A DNA stretch of 64,000 nucleotides from Fodinibius salicampi (GCF_039545095.1 NZ_BAABRS010000002.1:372001-436000); one strand, 5' to 3'. Positions 35,630-44,840 are shown, counted from the first letter of the stretch. Numbers and translations: made by a program. Notes: generated from the sequence alone by a model not told the origin.

Positions 35630-35662
35630 TGTGTAAGAAAATCTATACTTTTGGCATCTTAA

Positions 35663-35677
35663 TTAGAACTAATCTAA
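35663..35677 (+). promoter_or_regulatory. Putative Fur/DtxR-like operator between hemG and the Fe-binding lipoprotein gene
   Basis: TTAGAACTAATCTAA has 5-base inverted half-sites TTAGA/TCTAA. It sits in the 116-base divergent spacer, 34 bases from the hemG start and 69 from the binding-protein start. Close variants precede hemH and the DUF4856/imelysin operon. Confidence 0.5.
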
Positions 35678-35745
35678 ATTAATGCATGCCTGTTTTTGTC
35701 AATCAAAACCAGGATAAGTTTATTAATAATAGGCATTACATATAA

Positions 35746-36834
35746 ATGAACAGTGAAGAACAGACAATGAATATGATGAATTATTTTTCAACAACAATAT
35801 TAGTAGTACTATCTGCAGTTATACTAACTGCTTGTGGTGGATCAACTGATAGTGACGAGCTGATAGTATATTCGGGACGAAGCCAAGCATTAGTGGATCC
35901 CTTGGTGGATGATTTTAAAGAACAGACGGGTATAGATATAAAGGTTCGATACGGCAATGATGCAGAACTGCTTGCAGTAATGAGCGAAGAGGGAGACCAA
36001 AGTCCCGCTGATGTCTATTGGGCCAATACTACCGGTGCACTGGCAAATGCATCCCAGCAGGAGATGTTGACGACCTTGCCAGATTCACTGATTTCAAAAC
36101 CAGCAGCATACAGATCTTCTTCCGGGAAGTGGGTTCCTGTGACAGTCCGATTTCGAGTATTAGCTTATAATCCTGCAAATGTTGATACATCCGATCTTCC
36201 CGGCTCGGTGCTTGATTTACCCGAAATGGAAGAGCTCCAGGGACGTGTTGGATGGACGCCTACCTACTCCAGCTTTTACGATTTTATCACGGCATTACGA
36301 CTTACTGAAAGTGATGAAGTTGCTAAGAATTGGCTCAATAATATGCAATCGCTAGATCCCAAAGCCTACAGCTCAAATACGCCGATGGTACAGGCAATTT
36401 TAGCGGGAGAAATTGATATGGGGCTTACAAATCACTACTACGTAATCCAGACAAAATACGGCGGTAAGGAAGGATATTTTGAGGATCATGAGCACTATGG
36501 TGAAGCAGAGCCAGATCCCAATGCCAGTATTGAGACCTATCACTTTGCAAAAGGTGATATTGGTAACTTGGCATTGGTAACGGGAGCGTCTCAACTTCAG
36601 ACAGCGGATAGTCCGGAGCTAGCCCAAAGATTCTTGAGTTTTTTGCTGTCAAAACAGGCACAGGAGTATGCCGCCGAATCGGTTAATGAATATCCGGTGA
36701 TGGATAATGTGGCACTTCCCGATTATATGCTGGAAGCGGATGAAGCTCTACAGTTGAGTCCCGATTATGACTTTGAACAGTTACAGCAGCTCGAAGGTAC
36801 GCTGAATCTTCTTCGTGAGGTTGGAATAATTTAA
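35746..36834 (+). CDS. Fe(3+) ABC transporter substrate-binding lipoprotein
   Basis: A 362-residue lipoprotein (lipobox LTAC, Cys30 when counted from ATG 35746; ATG codons at residues 8-11 are alternatives). It matches the FbpA/FutA type: LIVYSGRSQALVDPLVDDF, ADVYWANTTGAL, VAVRFR-like VTVRFRVLAYNP, and MGLTNHYYV with the two adjacent tyrosines that bind ferric iron. HFAKGDIGNLALVTGAS follows. No permease or ATPase genes are nearby, so it either pairs with a transporter encoded elsewhere or acts alone. The upstream operator-like motif and the terminator just after it suggest a single-gene iron-responsive unit. Confidence 0.9.
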   Translation: MNSEEQTMNMMNYFSTTILVVLSAVILTACGGSTDSDELIVYSGRSQALVDPLVDDFKEQTGIDIKVRYGNDAELLAVMSEEGDQSPADVYWANTTGALANASQQEMLTTLPDSLISKPAAYRSSSGKWVPVTVRFRVLAYNPANVDTSDLPGSVLDLPEMEELQGRVGWTPTYSSFYDFITALRLTESDEVAKNWLNNMQSLDPKAYSSNTPMVQAILAGEIDMGLTNHYYVIQTKYGGKEGYFEDHEHYGEAEPDPNASIETYHFAKGDIGNLALVTGASQLQTADSPELAQRFLSFLLSKQAQEYAAESVNEYPVMDNVALPDYMLEADEALQLSPDYDFEQLQQLEGTLNLLREVGII

Positions 36835-36937: not shown

Positions 36938-38179
36938 TTAAAGACGAGGGTTAACTACATTGTTATAAATAGAGCCAAAGCTGAATTCAAGTCCAAAACG
37001 CACCTCGTACGAATAAGAAGTAAGCCGTTGACGAAGGTTAAGCAGCTGCTCTTCGTCTGTGATGTCTCCTGCAGGTATGGAAAGCTGATTATTGATCCAT
37101 GCATATTCACCAGAGATATAAAACGAGAGTCCGCGAAAGACTCGAAAGTCAAGCTGAACTTCTGTATCGAGTCGATTTTTGTTAAAATCATGAAGAAAAG
37201 CAGAGGCATTTATGTTTGCTTCAAATTCTCCCCAGGGCTGAGTGAATTCAATATCAGAACTCAGCTGTTGTCGCATTAGCCGTTCAGAGTTTTTACCATA
37301 AATTGTGATATCATTGTAATCATAATACCCACCAGTTAACCTGTACATAAATGTAATTTGTCGTTCTGTGAATTCACGGTAGGGAAAAACACTGTATTCT
37401 ACAGCGGGACTTCCTTCGATACGCAGATCATAATTGTTCCGGGTAGAATGACCTACTCTTGTGAAAATGCCCGCCGACCAATGGTCACTCAGACTTTTAA
37501 CTAATAACAGATCGGCGCCACGACTTTCTCTTATAAAGGTTCTGGTTTCTTCGTCGTCCTCAAAGGTTTGACGCTCGTAAAACTGACTTACATCAAATTC
37601 AAATTTCCATTCCGGTGTTATTCGCTCAGCACTTATACGGCCCCTGAGCCCGAACTCTTTCTCAGATTCCTCCCCTTCAATGTCAGTATCAGCCCGTATA
37701 TCAAACACCCAGTAATTCCAACTGTCACTTTCTGCGTCTGACTGGGAACTCCCTTCTGTAGCCTCATAATTAATATTCAGCTCATCAGCGATAGGCCGAT
37801 CAATCAGGTAGAAAAACAGGCCTCTTTTAATGTATCGGTTAAGGCCAATGCGCTCCTCATCCTGAGTATCTGATTCTGCGGCAAAGTAAGTAAGGGTTCG
37901 ATCCACTCCCTTAAACTCATTGCCACCAATAAATTTTAGAGTGTATTCCTCTCCGCCACTACCTGTTCGCTGATTTGTTATCAGAAGATGAACATCGGCA
38001 TCTTCTTGATTTCGTACGTAGTTGACAAAATTAATTTCGTCTCGAACGTAACCTTCATCGCATGCCCGGCGACAATCCAGATATACATCAATCGTTTTTG
38101 TAGAATCTTGAGCAAGTAATGTTTCGGGTACAAAAAAGAGGAGTAGCGCAAAAAGAGGATATAGATATGCTTTATGCAT
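36938..38179 (-). CDS. Outer-membrane beta-barrel protein of unknown function
   Basis: A 413-residue exported protein (signal peptide ending ETLLAQ). The N-terminal region contains DVYLDCRRACDEGYVRDEI, NFVNYVRNQEDADVHLLIT and TGSGGEEYTLKFIGG. This layout recurs in hypothetical proteins of Bacteroidota and related phyla. The remainder alternates aromatic/polar strands consistent with a barrel of about 14-16 strands (ITFMYRLTGGYYDYNDI; ISGEYAWINNQLS). The C-terminus NPRL lacks the usual final aromatic residue. Function unknown; it sits between the Fe-binding-protein terminator and the FecA-like receptor operon. Confidence 0.7.
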   Translation of the reverse strand: MHKAYLYPLFALLLFFVPETLLAQDSTKTIDVYLDCRRACDEGYVRDEINFVNYVRNQEDADVHLLITNQRTGSGGEEYTLKFIGGNEFKGVDRTLTYFAAESDTQDEERIGLNRYIKRGLFFYLIDRPIADELNINYEATEGSSQSDAESDSWNYWVFDIRADTDIEGEESEKEFGLRGRISAERITPEWKFEFDVSQFYERQTFEDDEETRTFIRESRGADLLLVKSLSDHWSAGIFTRVGHSTRNNYDLRIEGSPAVEYSVFPYREFTERQITFMYRLTGGYYDYNDITIYGKNSERLMRQQLSSDIEFTQPWGEFEANINASAFLHDFNKNRLDTEVQLDFRVFRGLSFYISGEYAWINNQLSIPAGDITDEEQLLNLRQRLTSYSYEVRFGLEFSFGSIYNNVVNPRL

Positions 38180-38440: not shown

Positions 38441-40927
38441 TTAAATTTGAATCCCCAGAGAAATATAGAAGTTGCGAACTTTGGCAGGAATGATGCCCGG
38501 TCCCGGATAGCCGGTAGCGCGACGCGTAAAATATTTTTCATCAGTAAGATTATTTACCCCGGCTTCCAGGTTAAGACGATCAAAGTGGTATTGAGCCGAA
38601 AAATCCATCACTTGATAAGCAGGAATGATGCCCTCAATAGCTGTTGGAGTGCGGTGGGCATTGGAAGCATCCGAAAAATGTTCAGCCACGTAGGTATATT
38701 GATAAGAAGCCTCAAAGCCCGCTTTAGAGAAGGTAAGACCTGTTTTAAGATTAAAGGGAGGAACAAGTTCTACTTCGTTGCCCTCAATGCCATTTTCATT
38801 GGAATTCGTATATGTAGCATTTATAACCGCCAGATTGGTAAACAGGGAAAGGCGCGCATCCCGGGTAGAACCAAAGAGTGAAAGTAAATCTACTTCCGTA
38901 AACGATTCGATACCGTAAATTTTGGCATCGGCGATATTGGTACGATAGCGAAAAGTACGGTCAACGAGGCCATTAAATTTAGGATTTGGCTCAGTGCGTA
39001 ATACGGTGCCAATGCGATCCTCATATGAAAGGTGGAAACCGGTAATATCATAGCTAAAGAGATCATCAATTTGACCCCGAATACCCAGATCCAAATTAAA
39101 CCCCCGTTCGTCTTGCATGTTCGGGTCCACTTCAAGATTGCCTACATCCACTCGGATATCATTAAAATTAATAGCCCGATAATTCTGCGAGTAGTTAGCA
39201 TAGAGTTCGAGCTGGCTGTCATGACGATAACTTGAGCCCACACCAAAAAACAGGAACGAGCGCTCCCGGCTTCGCTCTTCTTCAATACGTTCATCCATAA
39301 GAATGTTACCCGCCAGATCTTTGACTATATTGCGATAGTAGCCGTCAGCTTCGGTGTTGATATATTCAAACCTTGCACCGGGAGTTATGCTAAATTTAGG
39401 AGTGATATTGAAAATATTTTCAACAAATATAGAGCGGTTTTGACTAGGCAGGTCAAAATCTGATCCTTTTAAATTATCCGGATTTAAATACCGGAATTCC
39501 GGTTTGCTTCCATCGGATCCGTTTCCCTGCCGTCGGTGCGTATAACCATTGTAGATCCTTGTGCCGACCAAAAAGACCGAAAGTTCGTTGAGTAGGGGAT
39601 AGCGATGTATAAGGCGCATTTCGTTACCCCAATTTTGGAAGTCGTCTTTTAACAGATCACGCTCACCTCCCTGATCAAGCCGGTCAATTCGCTGAAGGTT
39701 GCCGAGGGCATCACGTCCTGCAACTAACCCAAAAAAGCGACTATTAATTCGAGTCTTGCTATTGAAAATATAATCGGCGTCCAAGGCAAATAGATTCCAG
39801 TTGACTTTAAACCAGTTTCGCTCCCGATGTGACTGGCTGGGATCGTTACGGAATTGGGCGTCGGTTAGTCCACCGGGTTGATGCGCCAGATAATACATAT
39901 GGGTGTATTCGGGTGTAATAGTAAAATCAGGTGTTATATCAATATCAAAAGAAAGGTAAGCCGTATGTTGGTCAAGTTCGGAATTGGGACGCCAGCCGTT
40001 ACTGGTTTTGTACTGGTAAAACCCATAATAATTTATGTCGGCCGTAGAGCCACCTGCACTATTGAAAGAATTGAAAAGTCCGAATGAACCATAGGATTGT
40101 GTGCTTTTAAGTTGAAAGGGGGTGTTCTGGGGACCATCCTTAAACTCAAAATTGAGCATGCCTCCAAACTGCGTTCCATACTGAAGGGAAGCAGCTCCAC
40201 GTATGATTTCAATCCGTTCAAGCGCCTGAACGGGCGGCGTATAATAACTTTCGGGATAGCCGAGTGCATCGGCGGCAATATCGTATCCATTTTGGCGGGT
40301 ATTAAAATTGGAGTTACGCTTTGGACTCAGACCCCGTCCGCCCACGCTGGTTTGAATTCCGGCATCATCGCTTTGCCAGATATTAAGTCCCGGTACTTTG
40401 GCATAGACCTGCCGGCTGTTGTTGCTGGCCTTGTTCAGGGTCATGTCTTCAATTACAAGGACTTCATTCTTTTTACTTTCATTGATGGAAACCCCTTCAA
40501 CTGATTGAAGCCGTGTAATGCCACTCGTGGATTCATTCTCTCCTCCTACAATGACTTCCTCGAGCATATTTCCCAGCATTTTAAGCTGGAAGTCTTGAAT
40601 TATATCAGAATTTTTAAGAATAACTTCCCTGCTTTGGGTTCTTTTCCCTGGGTAATAGACGATAACTTGATATTGACCGGCTGCCAAATTCTTAATTTCG
40701 TAATAACCTTTTTTATTGGTTGTGGTTTTAGATTGATATTGAATCGGCAAGGTATGTTCGTTGTTATCCTGTTTGTTATCAGCAAGATAAATATCAGCAT
40801 TAACAATGGGATTTCCACTGTTATCTGTTACTGTACCGGACAGGGTATAGTTTTGAGCCATGACGCTACTGGTACAGAAACATATGAGCAGAGAGACTAA
40901 TAAGGGAAAAAATGTGCTGTACTTCAT
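38441..40927 (-). CDS. TonB-dependent siderophore-type receptor (FecA-like)
   Basis: An 828-residue outer-membrane receptor. It has a signal peptide ending SSVMAQ, a carboxypeptidase-regulatory-like domain (about residues 27-115, LSGTVTDNSGNPIVNADIYL), then the plug (VYAKVPGLNIWQSDDAG; VGGRGLSPKRNSNFNTRQNG; ALERIEIIRGAASLQYGTQF). A 22-strand barrel follows, ending FYISLGIQI. The architecture resembles ferric-dicitrate or ferric-siderophore receptors. ATG 40925-40927 shares its A with the upstream TAA stop, indicating translational coupling; an earlier in-frame start is unlikely. It is the last gene of the DUF4856-imelysin-carboxylase-like operon. Confidence 0.92.
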   Translation of the reverse strand: MKYSTFFPLLVSLLICFCTSSVMAQNYTLSGTVTDNSGNPIVNADIYLADNKQDNNEHTLPIQYQSKTTTNKKGYYEIKNLAAGQYQVIVYYPGKRTQSREVILKNSDIIQDFQLKMLGNMLEEVIVGGENESTSGITRLQSVEGVSINESKKNEVLVIEDMTLNKASNNSRQVYAKVPGLNIWQSDDAGIQTSVGGRGLSPKRNSNFNTRQNGYDIAADALGYPESYYTPPVQALERIEIIRGAASLQYGTQFGGMLNFEFKDGPQNTPFQLKSTQSYGSFGLFNSFNSAGGSTADINYYGFYQYKTSNGWRPNSELDQHTAYLSFDIDITPDFTITPEYTHMYYLAHQPGGLTDAQFRNDPSQSHRERNWFKVNWNLFALDADYIFNSKTRINSRFFGLVAGRDALGNLQRIDRLDQGGERDLLKDDFQNWGNEMRLIHRYPLLNELSVFLVGTRIYNGYTHRRQGNGSDGSKPEFRYLNPDNLKGSDFDLPSQNRSIFVENIFNITPKFSITPGARFEYINTEADGYYRNIVKDLAGNILMDERIEEERSRERSFLFFGVGSSYRHDSQLELYANYSQNYRAINFNDIRVDVGNLEVDPNMQDERGFNLDLGIRGQIDDLFSYDITGFHLSYEDRIGTVLRTEPNPKFNGLVDRTFRYRTNIADAKIYGIESFTEVDLLSLFGSTRDARLSLFTNLAVINATYTNSNENGIEGNEVELVPPFNLKTGLTFSKAGFEASYQYTYVAEHFSDASNAHRTPTAIEGIIPAYQVMDFSAQYHFDRLNLEAGVNNLTDEKYFTRRATGYPGPGIIPAKVRNFYISLGIQI

Positions 40928-42333
40928 TATTGCAGACTTCTGAACCAATTTTGTTGATTTTCGTTAAATGGAAGGATCCAGTCTTTATGGGTAAATCCGC
41001 GATCCTGATTCGTTAGGTCTACATCAGAATTAATCATCGGTTGACTGCGTCGACCATTGAGCGTCACATAGCTTTCGGCAGTAATTTTGATATCATTAAT
41101 GCCTTGTTTCTGATATTCATCTTCGAGGTAATGGGCAAATTGTAGAATCATATCGGGCTGAGTAGACATCATTTTTTCCTGGTTGGGTGTCAGGTATTTA
41201 TAATTTCGTACCTGCCATTGACGGTCGGTAGCAGGATCGGTAACGTTAAAAGTAATGTGTCCCGCTTTTTCCATTAGCATAACGCGCCACGAAAAACGAT
41301 ATCCCTGCTCCGTCCAGAACAGGTGGCCGGGATAAAGGGCAAAACGTAACGGAACTAAAAGCTGCAGTATGAAGTGAATAATCAAAATCCCGCCAATAAC
41401 ATTTGTACTGTTTTTACTAAGCTGAAATTCTTCACTTTTTTTGGGAGTCGGTTCAGAATTGGGAACAGAAAAGGGCAGAAGCTTCCTTAAACCGGAAATG
41501 GCCCCAATAATTTTTTGGTGGAAATCGGCGGAGAAGAAAATGAGCGTACACAAGATCATGATAAAGGGAAACATGCCGATCTGGAACAGGAAATAGGTCA
41601 TCATATGGAAGATGATGACTGTTATGTAAGCGAAAATCCGTGTAGGCTTCCAGAGCAGAAAGAAGGCAATCGTTAGGTCATAAACCGCTCCGGCCCAGCT
41701 GAAAATGTAAGCGGTAGAAGTGTATTCCAGCAGGGGACCGATAATCGGGAGATCGGCGTTGGCAGGGAGCCAGATTCGCATGGGCATGGCGTTAACCAGC
41801 CAGTCTGGATTGAGTTTGGCCGCCCCGGCAAAAAAGTAAACAAGTCCCAGTTGCAGTTTAAAGATGTTAACCGTCCAGGCCGGTACGTATTCTTTGCGTA
41901 GGGATGGCTTGCGGAGTACATCGAGTGAGAAGCTGTGGTGGGCCGGGACCCACATCAGCAAAAAACTAATAATGCTTACAAAATAATAGTGGTTGAGATA
42001 GTTGGTTTTGTCAATGAGCTCGACATAGGTAAAGCACAGAAAAAAAAGGATGATTCCAAAGCGGTAATAGTAGCCCAGCATGACCGACAGGGCTGCGAGT
42101 CCCATTACAAAAAAGAGCAGGTACATCCCCGTTTCGCCCAGCGGGGTGACCCAGTCGAAGCCATAGTAGGTGAAAAAATAGTCTGGTTCTACATAAAGCT
42201 CATAAATCCACCCTTTAAGTGTAAAGCGGATGATGCTCACCAGCATGATGAATCCGAAGAGGAATCGGAAAACCGCCAGGGGTGCGATTGATACTTGCGG
42301 CGTAATATACTTTTTTACCGATTCGGGAATCAT
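40927..42333 (-). CDS. Vitamin K-dependent gamma-carboxylase-like (HTTM domain) membrane protein
   Basis: A 468-residue protein with at least eight predicted transmembrane helices in the N-terminal two thirds and a soluble C-terminal region. It follows the HTTM/gamma-glutamyl carboxylase pattern: LIDKTNYLNHYYF (compare the carboxylase DKTxxxNHxY pattern), WVPAHHSFSLD and YFFAGAAKLNPDWL. Lys173 lies where the human enzyme's catalytic lysine is, and EQGYRFSWRVMLMEK matches its C-terminal half. Activity is unproven: carboxylation, quinone epoxidation or a transport-linked role are all possible. It lies between the imelysin-like and receptor genes with near-zero spacing, implying a shared iron-related job. 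Confidence 0.85.
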   Translation of the reverse strand: MIPESVKKYITPQVSIAPLAVFRFLFGFIMLVSIIRFTLKGWIYELYVEPDYFFTYYGFDWVTPLGETGMYLLFFVMGLAALSVMLGYYYRFGIILFFLCFTYVELIDKTNYLNHYYFVSIISFLLMWVPAHHSFSLDVLRKPSLRKEYVPAWTVNIFKLQLGLVYFFAGAAKLNPDWLVNAMPMRIWLPANADLPIIGPLLEYTSTAYIFSWAGAVYDLTIAFFLLWKPTRIFAYITVIIFHMMTYFLFQIGMFPFIMILCTLIFFSADFHQKIIGAISGLRKLLPFSVPNSEPTPKKSEEFQLSKNSTNVIGGILIIHFILQLLVPLRFALYPGHLFWTEQGYRFSWRVMLMEKAGHITFNVTDPATDRQWQVRNYKYLTPNQEKMMSTQPDMILQFAHYLEDEYQKQGINDIKITAESYVTLNGRRSQPMINSDVDLTNQDRGFTHKDWILPFNENQQNWFRSLQ

Positions 42334-42339
42334 TAGGAG

Positions 42340-43467
42340 TTAGTCACCGTCGTTGTCTTGGTATGTAATTGTAATACCCAGTGCTGAAGTCATATCAGCT
42401 TTCAGCATTGAAACGAGGGCGTGAAGTTCTTCAAAAGAAGTTAACACCGCTTCATTATTATTTTCGATTTGTTGCGAAAGCGGATCGCTGAGCTGTTCAA
42501 GTGCCGACTGAGCATCTCCAATCTGCGACTTGATATCACTAGTAAGCTCTTCCGTATCAAAATCTACCCTATTATTAATAGAGACAAGGTTGTCATCCAA
42601 GCCTTTGCCACCAGCCCCTGCAAAAATTTGCTCTATTTGATTTAGGTTTGCAATCGCCAGTTCCACTGAATATCCACCATAATAGGCTTCAACGGCTTTT
42701 GGGCGTGGATTACCGGCACTGCGTACTCCTGCAGGGATTCCTATTTTGCCGTCGCGCAGGAATCGCTCGTAATGGCGCACATAGTGATTAATAAGCATAC
42801 CTAGTGAGCTTCCCGCATCAGTACCGGCGTTTTCCTGGCTTAAAAACATTCCGATATAGTCGCCGCCAGAGGACTGCCATTCGCTGGTGGCCGTATCGAT
42901 TTTATCTTTTACAAAAGTGATATTGTCGAGCAGGTAAGTCATGCGATTTTCGGCCTCGGCATCGGTTGTATACATGGCCAGAATTTCTTCATTGCTCTCG
43001 CCCACGCCGTGGAGTAAGTATCCCAGGGTGGGGAGTCCCGCTATATCCTGGTTATCGATACCACCAAAAGAATAATCACCGGAAGAGATATTGTCATTTA
43101 TTTCATTGTCGTCAACCGGATAGGTGTTGATAGATGATCGCAGCAGAATGGATTCTGCCGGGCCAAATTGAAAAGGGCTGACATCCTGCCAGGCTATTCG
43201 AGCGTCTTTTAAAGCTACTTGTAGATTTTCCAGTTGTTCAAGGGTGCGTTCGTTTTCAAAATCTTGAGCTGCAACCTGTAATTCCTTGACAGCGGTTTGT
43301 ATTTCCTCAAAGGCAGGTAGAATAATATTGTTACCGTAGTTGTTGAGCATCTCGGACCGGTCGGAATTATCTTGTTCATCCGGAGATGTACTGTTACTAC
43401 ATGCTGCAAATGATAGCGAGAGCATCAGTATAGCGGAAAAATAAGTGATTCTTGAGTGTATCATCAT
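42340..43467 (-). CDS. Imelysin-like (peptidase M75 family) lipoprotein
   Basis: A 375-residue lipoprotein (lipobox FAAC, Cys23) with the all-helical two-domain layout of imelysin/IrpA-like proteins, which bind iron or act in iron uptake. Recognisable segments are ARIAWQDVSPFQFGPAESI, GLPTLGYLLHGVG and LGMLINHYVRHYERFLRDGKIGIPAG. The family's GxHxxE metal motif is not intact: the equivalent position reads GLPTLGYLL. Metal binding, if any, must use other residues. It lies 6 bases upstream of the carboxylase-like gene and 78 bases downstream of the DUF4856 gene, in the same operon. Confidence 0.88.
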   Translation of the reverse strand: MMIHSRITYFSAILMLSLSFAACSNSTSPDEQDNSDRSEMLNNYGNNIILPAFEEIQTAVKELQVAAQDFENERTLEQLENLQVALKDARIAWQDVSPFQFGPAESILLRSSINTYPVDDNEINDNISSGDYSFGGIDNQDIAGLPTLGYLLHGVGESNEEILAMYTTDAEAENRMTYLLDNITFVKDKIDTATSEWQSSGGDYIGMFLSQENAGTDAGSSLGMLINHYVRHYERFLRDGKIGIPAGVRSAGNPRPKAVEAYYGGYSVELAIANLNQIEQIFAGAGGKGLDDNLVSINNRVDFDTEELTSDIKSQIGDAQSALEQLSDPLSQQIENNNEAVLTSFEELHALVSMLKADMTSALGITITYQDNDGD

Positions 43468-43545: not shown

Positions 43546-44712
43546 TTACAGTTGATCTTGAACGGATTCGAGATCGGGGTAGGTATCTACGAGTGTGGAT
43601 TTAGCGTTATTAAGTCCCTCTGGAGTAACATTCCAGAAGTTGCCATTTTCTCCGAAATCGCTATTCAGAATTTGGTCGATTTGGTCTAGCGTAATGGTTT
43701 TATTGGGACTGTACTTAAGTGCGTTGACAAACGCCCAGGCTTCTGAAAGTGCATGAAATGCTTCGCCCTGGTTGCCGTCATTCCAATGTGAAAGTGTACT
43801 GTTTATATAATGTACGGCGGTAGCTGCGGCCAGCAACTCCAGATTTTCATATAATACATCAACTTGTTCATCAAGTTCGCCTTGGTTGTCATTGACAATG
43901 GCAGTGCGCCCATGAATAAAGGCTTCCATAATAGTATCGTTGAATCCAAGCTGTTCATCAGATCCATTGGAGTATTTGCTCCAGAATCGAAGTTCATCGG
44001 AGCGAGAATCTGCCCAGTCGGATTCAAAGTCAGCGGGAGCGTTAAAATAACCGAATGCTTCATCAAAGTGATGTTCTTTGGTGGTGTAATTGGCACCTTC
44101 TTCGGTTTCACTGTTTTCAACGTTGGGGCCAATTTTACTATCGGTCAGGTATTCGTTGAAAATTTGATTATATAAGACAGCGCCCATCAGCCCTTTTTCT
44201 ACGAGTTGGGTAAATTCGCGTCCTTTCTCGTCAACTAATATATCATTACCGCTATTCTCGCGTTCCAAGAGTCCGGCAATTCCATCCTTTGCGCGAATAC
44301 GGGCGCTGCCGTTTTCGCTGGCATCGGCAGCATCGGCAAAAATATCTTCAAACAGATTGTTATCCAGATCAGGGCCAAAGGTTTTGTTTTTGAGTTGTTT
44401 TTCAGACTCAAAAGAGAAATTGCCACCGCCATCTCCGCCGGTATTTTCAAACATATCGAGGAGTGCTTGTTCGGAAATGGTTTCACCGTTGTGTGCCGTT
44501 GCGATGTATGCTTTCATTTCTTCAACCATATTCAGACGGTCGGTTTGACCAGGGTAGGCGACGGTTGATTCACCGTTACGGGTGAATTCATAGGTTTCGG
44601 GAGGAGTAATGGAAGGGTCATCAGTATCACTATTACTAACATCACAGGAAGATATTAGCAGGCTAAGTACCAGGGCTGGGAATAATAATTGGGTCAGCGT
44701 TAAACGATGCAT
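43546..44712 (-). CDS. DUF4856 family lipoprotein
   Basis: A 388-residue lipoprotein (lipobox ISSC, Cys23). The early region has YEFTRNGESTVAYPGQTDRLNMVEEMKAYI and, further on, TTKEHHFDEAFGYFNAP, then AFIHGRTAIVNDNQ and TAVHYINSTLSHWNDG. These histidine/aspartate-bearing helices typify DUF4856, which usually accompanies imelysin-like genes in Bacteroidota. It is first in the four-gene operon, and an operator-like palindrome lies 16 bases upstream. A periplasm- or surface-facing iron or heme-handling role is inferred from context. Confidence 0.86.
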   Translation of the reverse strand: MHRLTLTQLLFPALVLSLLISSCDVSNSDTDDPSITPPETYEFTRNGESTVAYPGQTDRLNMVEEMKAYIATAHNGETISEQALLDMFENTGGDGGGNFSFESEKQLKNKTFGPDLDNNLFEDIFADAADASENGSARIRAKDGIAGLLERENSGNDILVDEKGREFTQLVEKGLMGAVLYNQIFNEYLTDSKIGPNVENSETEEGANYTTKEHHFDEAFGYFNAPADFESDWADSRSDELRFWSKYSNGSDEQLGFNDTIMEAFIHGRTAIVNDNQGELDEQVDVLYENLELLAAATAVHYINSTLSHWNDGNQGEAFHALSEAWAFVNALKYSPNKTITLDQIDQILNSDFGENGNFWNVTPEGLNNAKSTLVDTYPDLESVQDQL

Positions 44713-44727
44713 TTTTATAATTTTTAT

Positions 44728-44742
44728 TTAAATTAAATCTAA
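44728..44742 (-). promoter_or_regulatory. Putative Fur/DtxR-like operator upstream of the DUF4856/imelysin operon
   Basis: The minus strand reads TTAGATTTAATTTAA, preceded by CTAA. It aligns with the hemG-region site over TAATTAGAnnTAATyTAA. It lies 16 bases before the start codon of the first gene. Confidence 0.42.
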
Positions 44743-44840
44743 TTAGCAGGGAGGGAAAATAATAACTGTGTAGATTAATTCTAAATAAAAATATTTTTTT
44801 ATCTCTCTTCTTTTAGTTGTGCTTTTAGGCTCTAAAACGA

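Follow-up and report, generated by a model that had tools for sequence, protein, structure and literature searches.

In a 64,000-nucleotide stretch of the Fodinibius salicampi genome (GCF_039545095.1, NZ_BAABRS010000002.1:372001-436000; below, the window, with positions counted from its first letter) we found that the gene at 40927..42333 on the minus strand encodes a bacterial homologue of the vitamin K-dependent carboxylase (VKGC; GGCX in human). It is the third gene of a conserved operon with the gene order DUF4856 lipoprotein, imelysin lipoprotein, VKGC, TonB-dependent receptor. Human GGCX activates the proteins of blood clotting with the help of vitamin K; to our knowledge, no natural role has been assigned to the bacterial homologues. 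The reading we prefer, with a probability of about 0.5, is that this protein acts as a menaquinol-dependent carboxylase of a Fur-switched iron-uptake operon and carboxylates a glutamate of a partner that is probably an envelope protein. Because the operon is fixed, iron-controlled and supplies named partner candidates, the role of a bacterial VKGC becomes directly testable.

The open reading frame starts with ATG and codes for 468 amino acids, with an HTTM domain at residues 15-270 and a VKGC lumenal domain at residues 311-458. Both domains, whose joint presence defines the VKGC superfamily, scored above their gathering cut-offs of 27.7 bits (PF05090, 285.9 bits; PF22777 VKGC_lumenal_dom, 195.5 bits), and phmmer matched residues 16-467 to human GGCX (E 3.7e-49); the identity of the protein is therefore far beyond chance. 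An earlier description made from the DNA alone (the sequence-only reading) had called the product carboxylase-like on the strength of three motifs, LIDKTNYLNHYYF, AGAAKLNPDWL (with Lys173) and EQGYRFSWRVMLMEK; all three are present in the translation, and the domain and phmmer matches bear the assignment out. The enzyme family is already known, and so is its automatic annotation; peptidyl-glutamic acid carboxylation, for instance, is assigned to a plasmid VKGC homologue. No second HTTM gene was found in the F. salicampi genome.

A comparison of a predicted structure with the carboxylase had been proposed in the sequence-only reading. The AlphaFold2 model of VKGC (built from 31 relatives, mean pLDDT 88.8) recovered the GGCX fold: all 16 significant Foldseek matches in the PDB were human GGCX (best E 2.3e-23, TM 0.84), and VIA-align superposed 433 residues on GGCX with Z 33.0 and rmsd 2.9, while the next, unrelated families reached Z values of 8.2 at most.

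Considering the active site, we aligned 138 VKGCs of the operon with 20 other VKGCs and read the columns in GGCX numbering. Cryo-EM of GGCX identified K218 as the catalytic base, N159, H160 and Y395 as the residues holding the glutamate side chain, and F286, F294, F299, H160, V210, M401 and W223 as the lining of the quinone pocket (PMC12589487). The equivalent of K218 is Lys173 (codon at 41815..41817, minus strand); it had been suggested that the carboxylase idea would fall if this residue were not conserved, and Lys occupies the position in 138/138 operon and 20/20 other VKGCs. Asn114-His115 (codons at 41989..41994, minus strand) correspond to the Glu-pocket residues Asn159-His160 and are likewise present in 138/138 operon sequences. 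Invariant among these 138 are the equivalents of K218, N159, H160, W223, A214, F286, H287, F299, W399 and M402; the position of Y395 is taken by Tyr in 109 and by Phe in 29, and that of M401 always by Val. Thus the likeness to human GGCX (9bvk, 9l6q, 9wfc and other structures) extends over the fold, the HTTM and lumenal domains and the residues Lys218, Asn159, His160, Trp223, Phe286, His287 and Phe299; VKGC differs in residing in an iron operon and in the parts concerned with substrate recognition, considered below.

All four genes of the operon are on the minus strand. The DUF4856 lipoprotein gene, the first, is at 43546..44712 (PF16148, 182.4 bits), the gene for the imelysin lipoprotein of the IPPA/PA4372 type is at 42340..43467 (PF09375, 96.8 bits), and the receptor gene, with CarboxypepD_reg, plug and barrel domains by Pfam, is at 38441..40927. 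An imelysin lipoprotein accompanied by a TonB receptor, the combination that marks an imelysin-based iron-uptake operon, is thus present. The sequence-only reading had named the imelysin (M75) and DUF4856 proteins correctly, as the Pfam matches indicate, and was also right about the spacing: 6 bases separate the end of the imelysin gene (42340) from the VKGC start (42333). Its further statement, that VKGC is translationally coupled to a FecA-like receptor, holds in part. The TAA stop of VKGC and the receptor ATG at 40927 share one base (TAATG), so coupling appears plausible from the sequence; the receptor is TonB-dependent, but scored only 69 bits with the FecA equivalog model against a cut-off of 1100.

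The operon is conserved well beyond Fodinibius. The VKGC lumenal domain was found in 69 of 296 genomes that sample the phylum-level group evenly, and 18-kb neighbourhoods were read around every VKGC match (the loci are labelled L with a number). Among 80 VKGC open reading frames of this sample, 56 were situated in the full DUF4856, imelysin, VKGC, TonB receptor order; at least two partners were present in 62, and the remaining 18 had no partner. A second collection of named genomes, in which near relatives of the query are over-represented and which shares part of its content with the even sample, had the complete four-gene operon in 72/80 cases, with carriers among Fodinibius, Pontibacter, Mucilaginibacter, Flavobacterium, Spirosoma, Hymenobacter, Riemerella, Tenacibaculum and others. 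The median gap between imelysin and VKGC genes was 3 bases; VKGC and receptor genes, taken as longest open reading frames, overlapped in 115/141 loci. As many as 46 of the 50 genomes with DUF4856 also carried VKGC (Fisher p 9e-32). In the VKGC tree the operon VKGCs formed one group (SH-aLRT 99), separate from the solo VKGCs, whether linked to ribF or not; the human sequence sat on a very long branch of unsure placement. The neighbourhood survey that the sequence-only reading had proposed, naming loss of the association with iron genes in other genomes as the outcome that would speak against it, therefore came out in its favor, with the association kept across Balneolota, Rhodothermota and Bacteroidota.

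Iron control was assessed with a position weight matrix (PWM) derived from seven Fur boxes of Riemerella anatipestifer, out of those in Table 5 of PMC5609570, at a threshold of 13.5 bits. Two Fur-box-like sites are situated at the operon head, both on the minus strand: the inverted repeat ATTTAGAATTAATCTACAC at 44768..44786 (17.9 bits), which also fits a strict Fur pattern, and AATTAGATTTAATTTAAAT at 44726..44744 (17.9-18.0 bits). Sites at or above the threshold preceded DUF4856 in 111/130 operons versus 18/410 other upstream regions of the same loci. Only three sites stood out in the window, the two at the operon head and one at 35661-35679; the best score elsewhere was ∼12.2 bits. The strict pattern occurs at 5 places in the 3.94-Mb genome, one of them at this operon; of the other four, three precede TonB receptor genes (one of them with HmuY) and one an ABC permease gene. 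The genome encodes one Fur protein, and with the sites at its head the operon is a putative member of the Fur regulon.

Published expression data are available for the orthologous operon of a relative. According to Table 4 of PMC5609570, R. anatipestifer at low iron up-regulates RAYM_09779 (receptor) 2.11-fold, RAYM_09784 (annotated as vitamin K-dependent gamma-carboxylase) 2.64-fold, RAYM_09789 (imelysin) 3.07-fold and RAYM_09794 (hypothetical protein) 2.41-fold; judging from the gene order in R. columbina (L151), RAYM_09794 would be DUF4856. The authors placed RAYM_09779-09794 in their Fur-regulated list; according to the same source, the low-iron response was still present in the fur mutant, and the effect of fur at high iron was small (1.36-1.93). 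Together with the Fur-box-like sites, the Riemerella data support control of the operon by a Fur-type iron switch. The Riemerella operon resembles the one described here in its receptor, VKGC, imelysin and next gene, in low-iron induction and in its place in the Fur list; the difference is that it figures in Table 4 as entries only, with no function proposed there, and that Table 5 gives no Fur box for these genes (PMC5609570).

One could picture the following mechanism. VKGC would be an inner-membrane enzyme of nine helices, its catalytic domain facing the periplasm as in GGCX, and the operon clade would be dedicated to the four-gene iron-uptake operon under a Fur-type switch. Upon iron limitation the enzyme would bind menaquinol, which is inferred to be the cofactor because MenA and MenB are present in the genome; Lys173 would deprotonate it, and reaction with O2 would produce a strong base, with quinone epoxide as by-product. 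His115 and Asn114 would hold a glutamate side chain of the envelope partner, to be carboxylated with CO2. The malonate-like gamma-carboxyglutamate might then give the partner a hard-metal site, or a matured surface that would serve to pass iron from the receptor; by gene position, the nearest partner candidates would be the receptor and the imelysin. That gamma-carboxyglutamate or a similar malonate-like residue, made with menaquinol under Fur control, occurs on an envelope iron-uptake protein in bacteria of the Bacteroidota/Balneolota group, so that the protein carboxylation known from clotting factors would serve iron acquisition, is a tentative proposal, to which we would give somewhat less than even odds.

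Several observations weigh against the carboxylation of an envelope partner. The VKGC chain ends near GGCX residue 509-517 and hence is devoid of the propeptide-binding lobe PBD-2 and of the arch; K217 is replaced by Ala, N158 by Leu and R436 by Met or Gln, and both cysteines of the C99-C450 disulphide are not kept. The vertebrate-type propeptide-binding exosite (PBD-2, arch) and Lys217/Arg436 are thus absent, and substrate recognition must therefore differ from that of GGCX: the chemistry site is retained, the GGCX mode of substrate recognition is not. No partner is universal, since L077 has VKGC alone, L161 DUF4856 only and L135 the receptor only. Neither a glutamate-rich patch nor a glutamate patch specific to VKGC was seen in the DUF4856, imelysin and receptor proteins, in comparison with controls that were few (15 receptors, 32 imelysins, 7 DUF4856 proteins) and distant. 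The targets named in the sequence-only reading, a glutamate-rich imelysin or DUF4856 lipoprotein, thus lose ground, the more so as an imelysin of the same type occurs without VKGC and some VKGC genes occur without one or both lipoproteins. VKOR, the usual recycler of the epoxide, was not enriched with VKGC (16/69 VKGC genomes versus 56/227 others, p 0.87); this speaks against an animal-type vitamin K cycle, although a large menaquinol pool may make recycling of the VKOR type unnecessary in a respiring cell. Finally, the VKGC homologue of Leptospira, likewise a bacterial one, is said to epoxidize vitamin K without detectable carboxylase activity.

Some of these points would fit the main rival reading, a quinol epoxidase or oxygenase that, like the Leptospira homologue as reported, carboxylates no protein and makes, for instance, an oxidant or strong base for another reaction. 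The quinol pocket and the Lys base are invariant while N158 and R436 (parts of the Glu-backbone site) and the propeptide lobe are not, the VKOR link is absent, and a redox protein, the di-haem peroxidase DHOR, adjoins the same imelysin type in VKGC-free operons. However, N159 and H160, which in GGCX hold the glutamate side chain, are invariant as well, and VKGC follows imelysin, DHOR and imelysin genes and precedes the receptor gene in one operon (L098), so that it is no simple substitute for DHOR. We consider such an enzyme rather unlikely. Carboxylation of a small molecule, e.g. an iron ligand, would explain why the GGCX substrate exosite is absent and why no conserved protein target site was found in the partners; still, no gene for ligand biosynthesis was recognised in the operon, whose conserved genes code for binding and transport proteins, and this possibility appears quite unlikely.

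The tight gene coupling and the recognition parts unlike those of GGCX might also be expected if the protein were a catalytically inactive scaffold in the membrane, or a chaperone, serving the lipoproteins or the receptor; strict retention of the catalytic-pocket residues, including Lys173, in 138 sequences makes this very unlikely. Direct reduction of Fe(III) by electrons of the bound quinol, akin to the quinol-aided ferric reduction put forward in the sequence-only reading, is highly improbable: a quinol pocket in a protein of an iron operon would suit it, but nothing in VKGC points to a haem, flavin or metal site, and its invariant residues belong to the oxygenase/base mechanism of GGCX, which sends no electrons outward. 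That idea proved the weaker one, with no positive evidence and a pocket that is the one of a quinol oxygenase.

The partner proteins have features of their own. In the operon imelysin the GxHxxE motif is replaced by GLPTLGY, and the C-terminus reads DNDGD; the terminal Asp-Gly-Asp (42343..42351, minus strand) ends 136 of 137 operon imelysins exactly. The same tail ends IPPA (3pf0), where it is disordered in the crystal, and imelysins that adjoin the di-haem protein DHOR without VKGC; DGD is therefore a family hallmark and no mark of VKGC, and we discarded it as a VKGC-specific target. A near-invariant C-terminal DGD was seen in IPPA-type imelysins with or without VKGC (L191:7914-8972, L192:8302-9435, L194, L197, PDB 3pf0); the 2011 paper on the IPPA structure does not mention it in the text. 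The DUF4856 protein is distantly similar to FEA1-related lipoproteins (NF038033, 31.4 bits, below the cut-off of 250); its AlphaFold2 model is all-helical (pLDDT 91.6) and had no significant match in the PDB (best E 0.6 with Foldseek; best Z 7.9 with VIA, as is usual for unrelated helical bundles).

Operons of the PA4370-PA4373 type, imelysin, DHOR (DUF1111), imelysin (PMC3143127), share with the present one the IPPA-type imelysin, the degenerate GxHxxE, the DGD tail and Fur control; here, in contrast, DUF4856 comes first and VKGC is placed after the imelysin. A hybrid, imelysin, DHOR di-haem oxidoreductase, imelysin, VKGC, TonB receptor, was found at L098:8657-12596; as it contains both, VKGC as a plain replacement of DHOR was ruled out. 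The peroxidase partner (EfeB/DHOR) had no DHOR match in the F. salicampi genome and is present in few related operons, such as L098.

The literature searched gave no account of this operon as a system, and no paper with ‘HTTM domain-containing protein’; among the matches listed, none named DUF4856. The Riemerella genes were previously present in a table. If partner carboxylation is true, the range of gamma-carboxyglutamate would widen to the iron biology of bacteria, and the chemistry of animal clotting could be older and broader than assumed; the operon also offers a candidate role for widespread unexplained lipoproteins (DUF4856, IPPA-type imelysins).

Some observations concern VKGC genes in other settings. 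At L077:8915-10285 an operon-clade VKGC stands by itself between the genes that border the complete operon in L060; the three partners were apparently lost and the enzyme retained. In loci of the Flavobacteriia type (L067, L083, L087, L100 and relatives) a VKGC of another clade is located directly 3′ of a ribF-like gene (riboflavin kinase/FAD synthetase, identified by eye). A Glu/Asp-rich lipoprotein (27% acidic, with C-terminal poly-Asp and weak DUF4382 similarity) is encoded directly 5′ of a solo VKGC at L106:6907-7632 and L107:7220-7936; it is a possible carboxylation substrate. The plasmid VKGCs at two annotated loci (Paracoccus, Bernardetia) had no iron neighbours, the Persicobacter record being unannotated there.

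In the window, a gene at 36938-38179 (minus strand), 3′ of the receptor gene, codes for a 413-aa protein with no Pfam or NCBIfam match and with phmmer matches in 3 of the 79 loci searched, the window included. Over the genome as a whole, the Fur-box pattern matches best ahead of the HmuY and TonB-receptor genes at L226:4480-7437. The window site at 35661-35679 (18.5 bits) is ahead of a solute-binding lipoprotein gene at 35746-36834 (plus strand), and a similar Fur-box-like site accompanies an ABC permease gene in another part of the genome (L227); this suggests that the two genes encode parts of a split iron ABC transporter.

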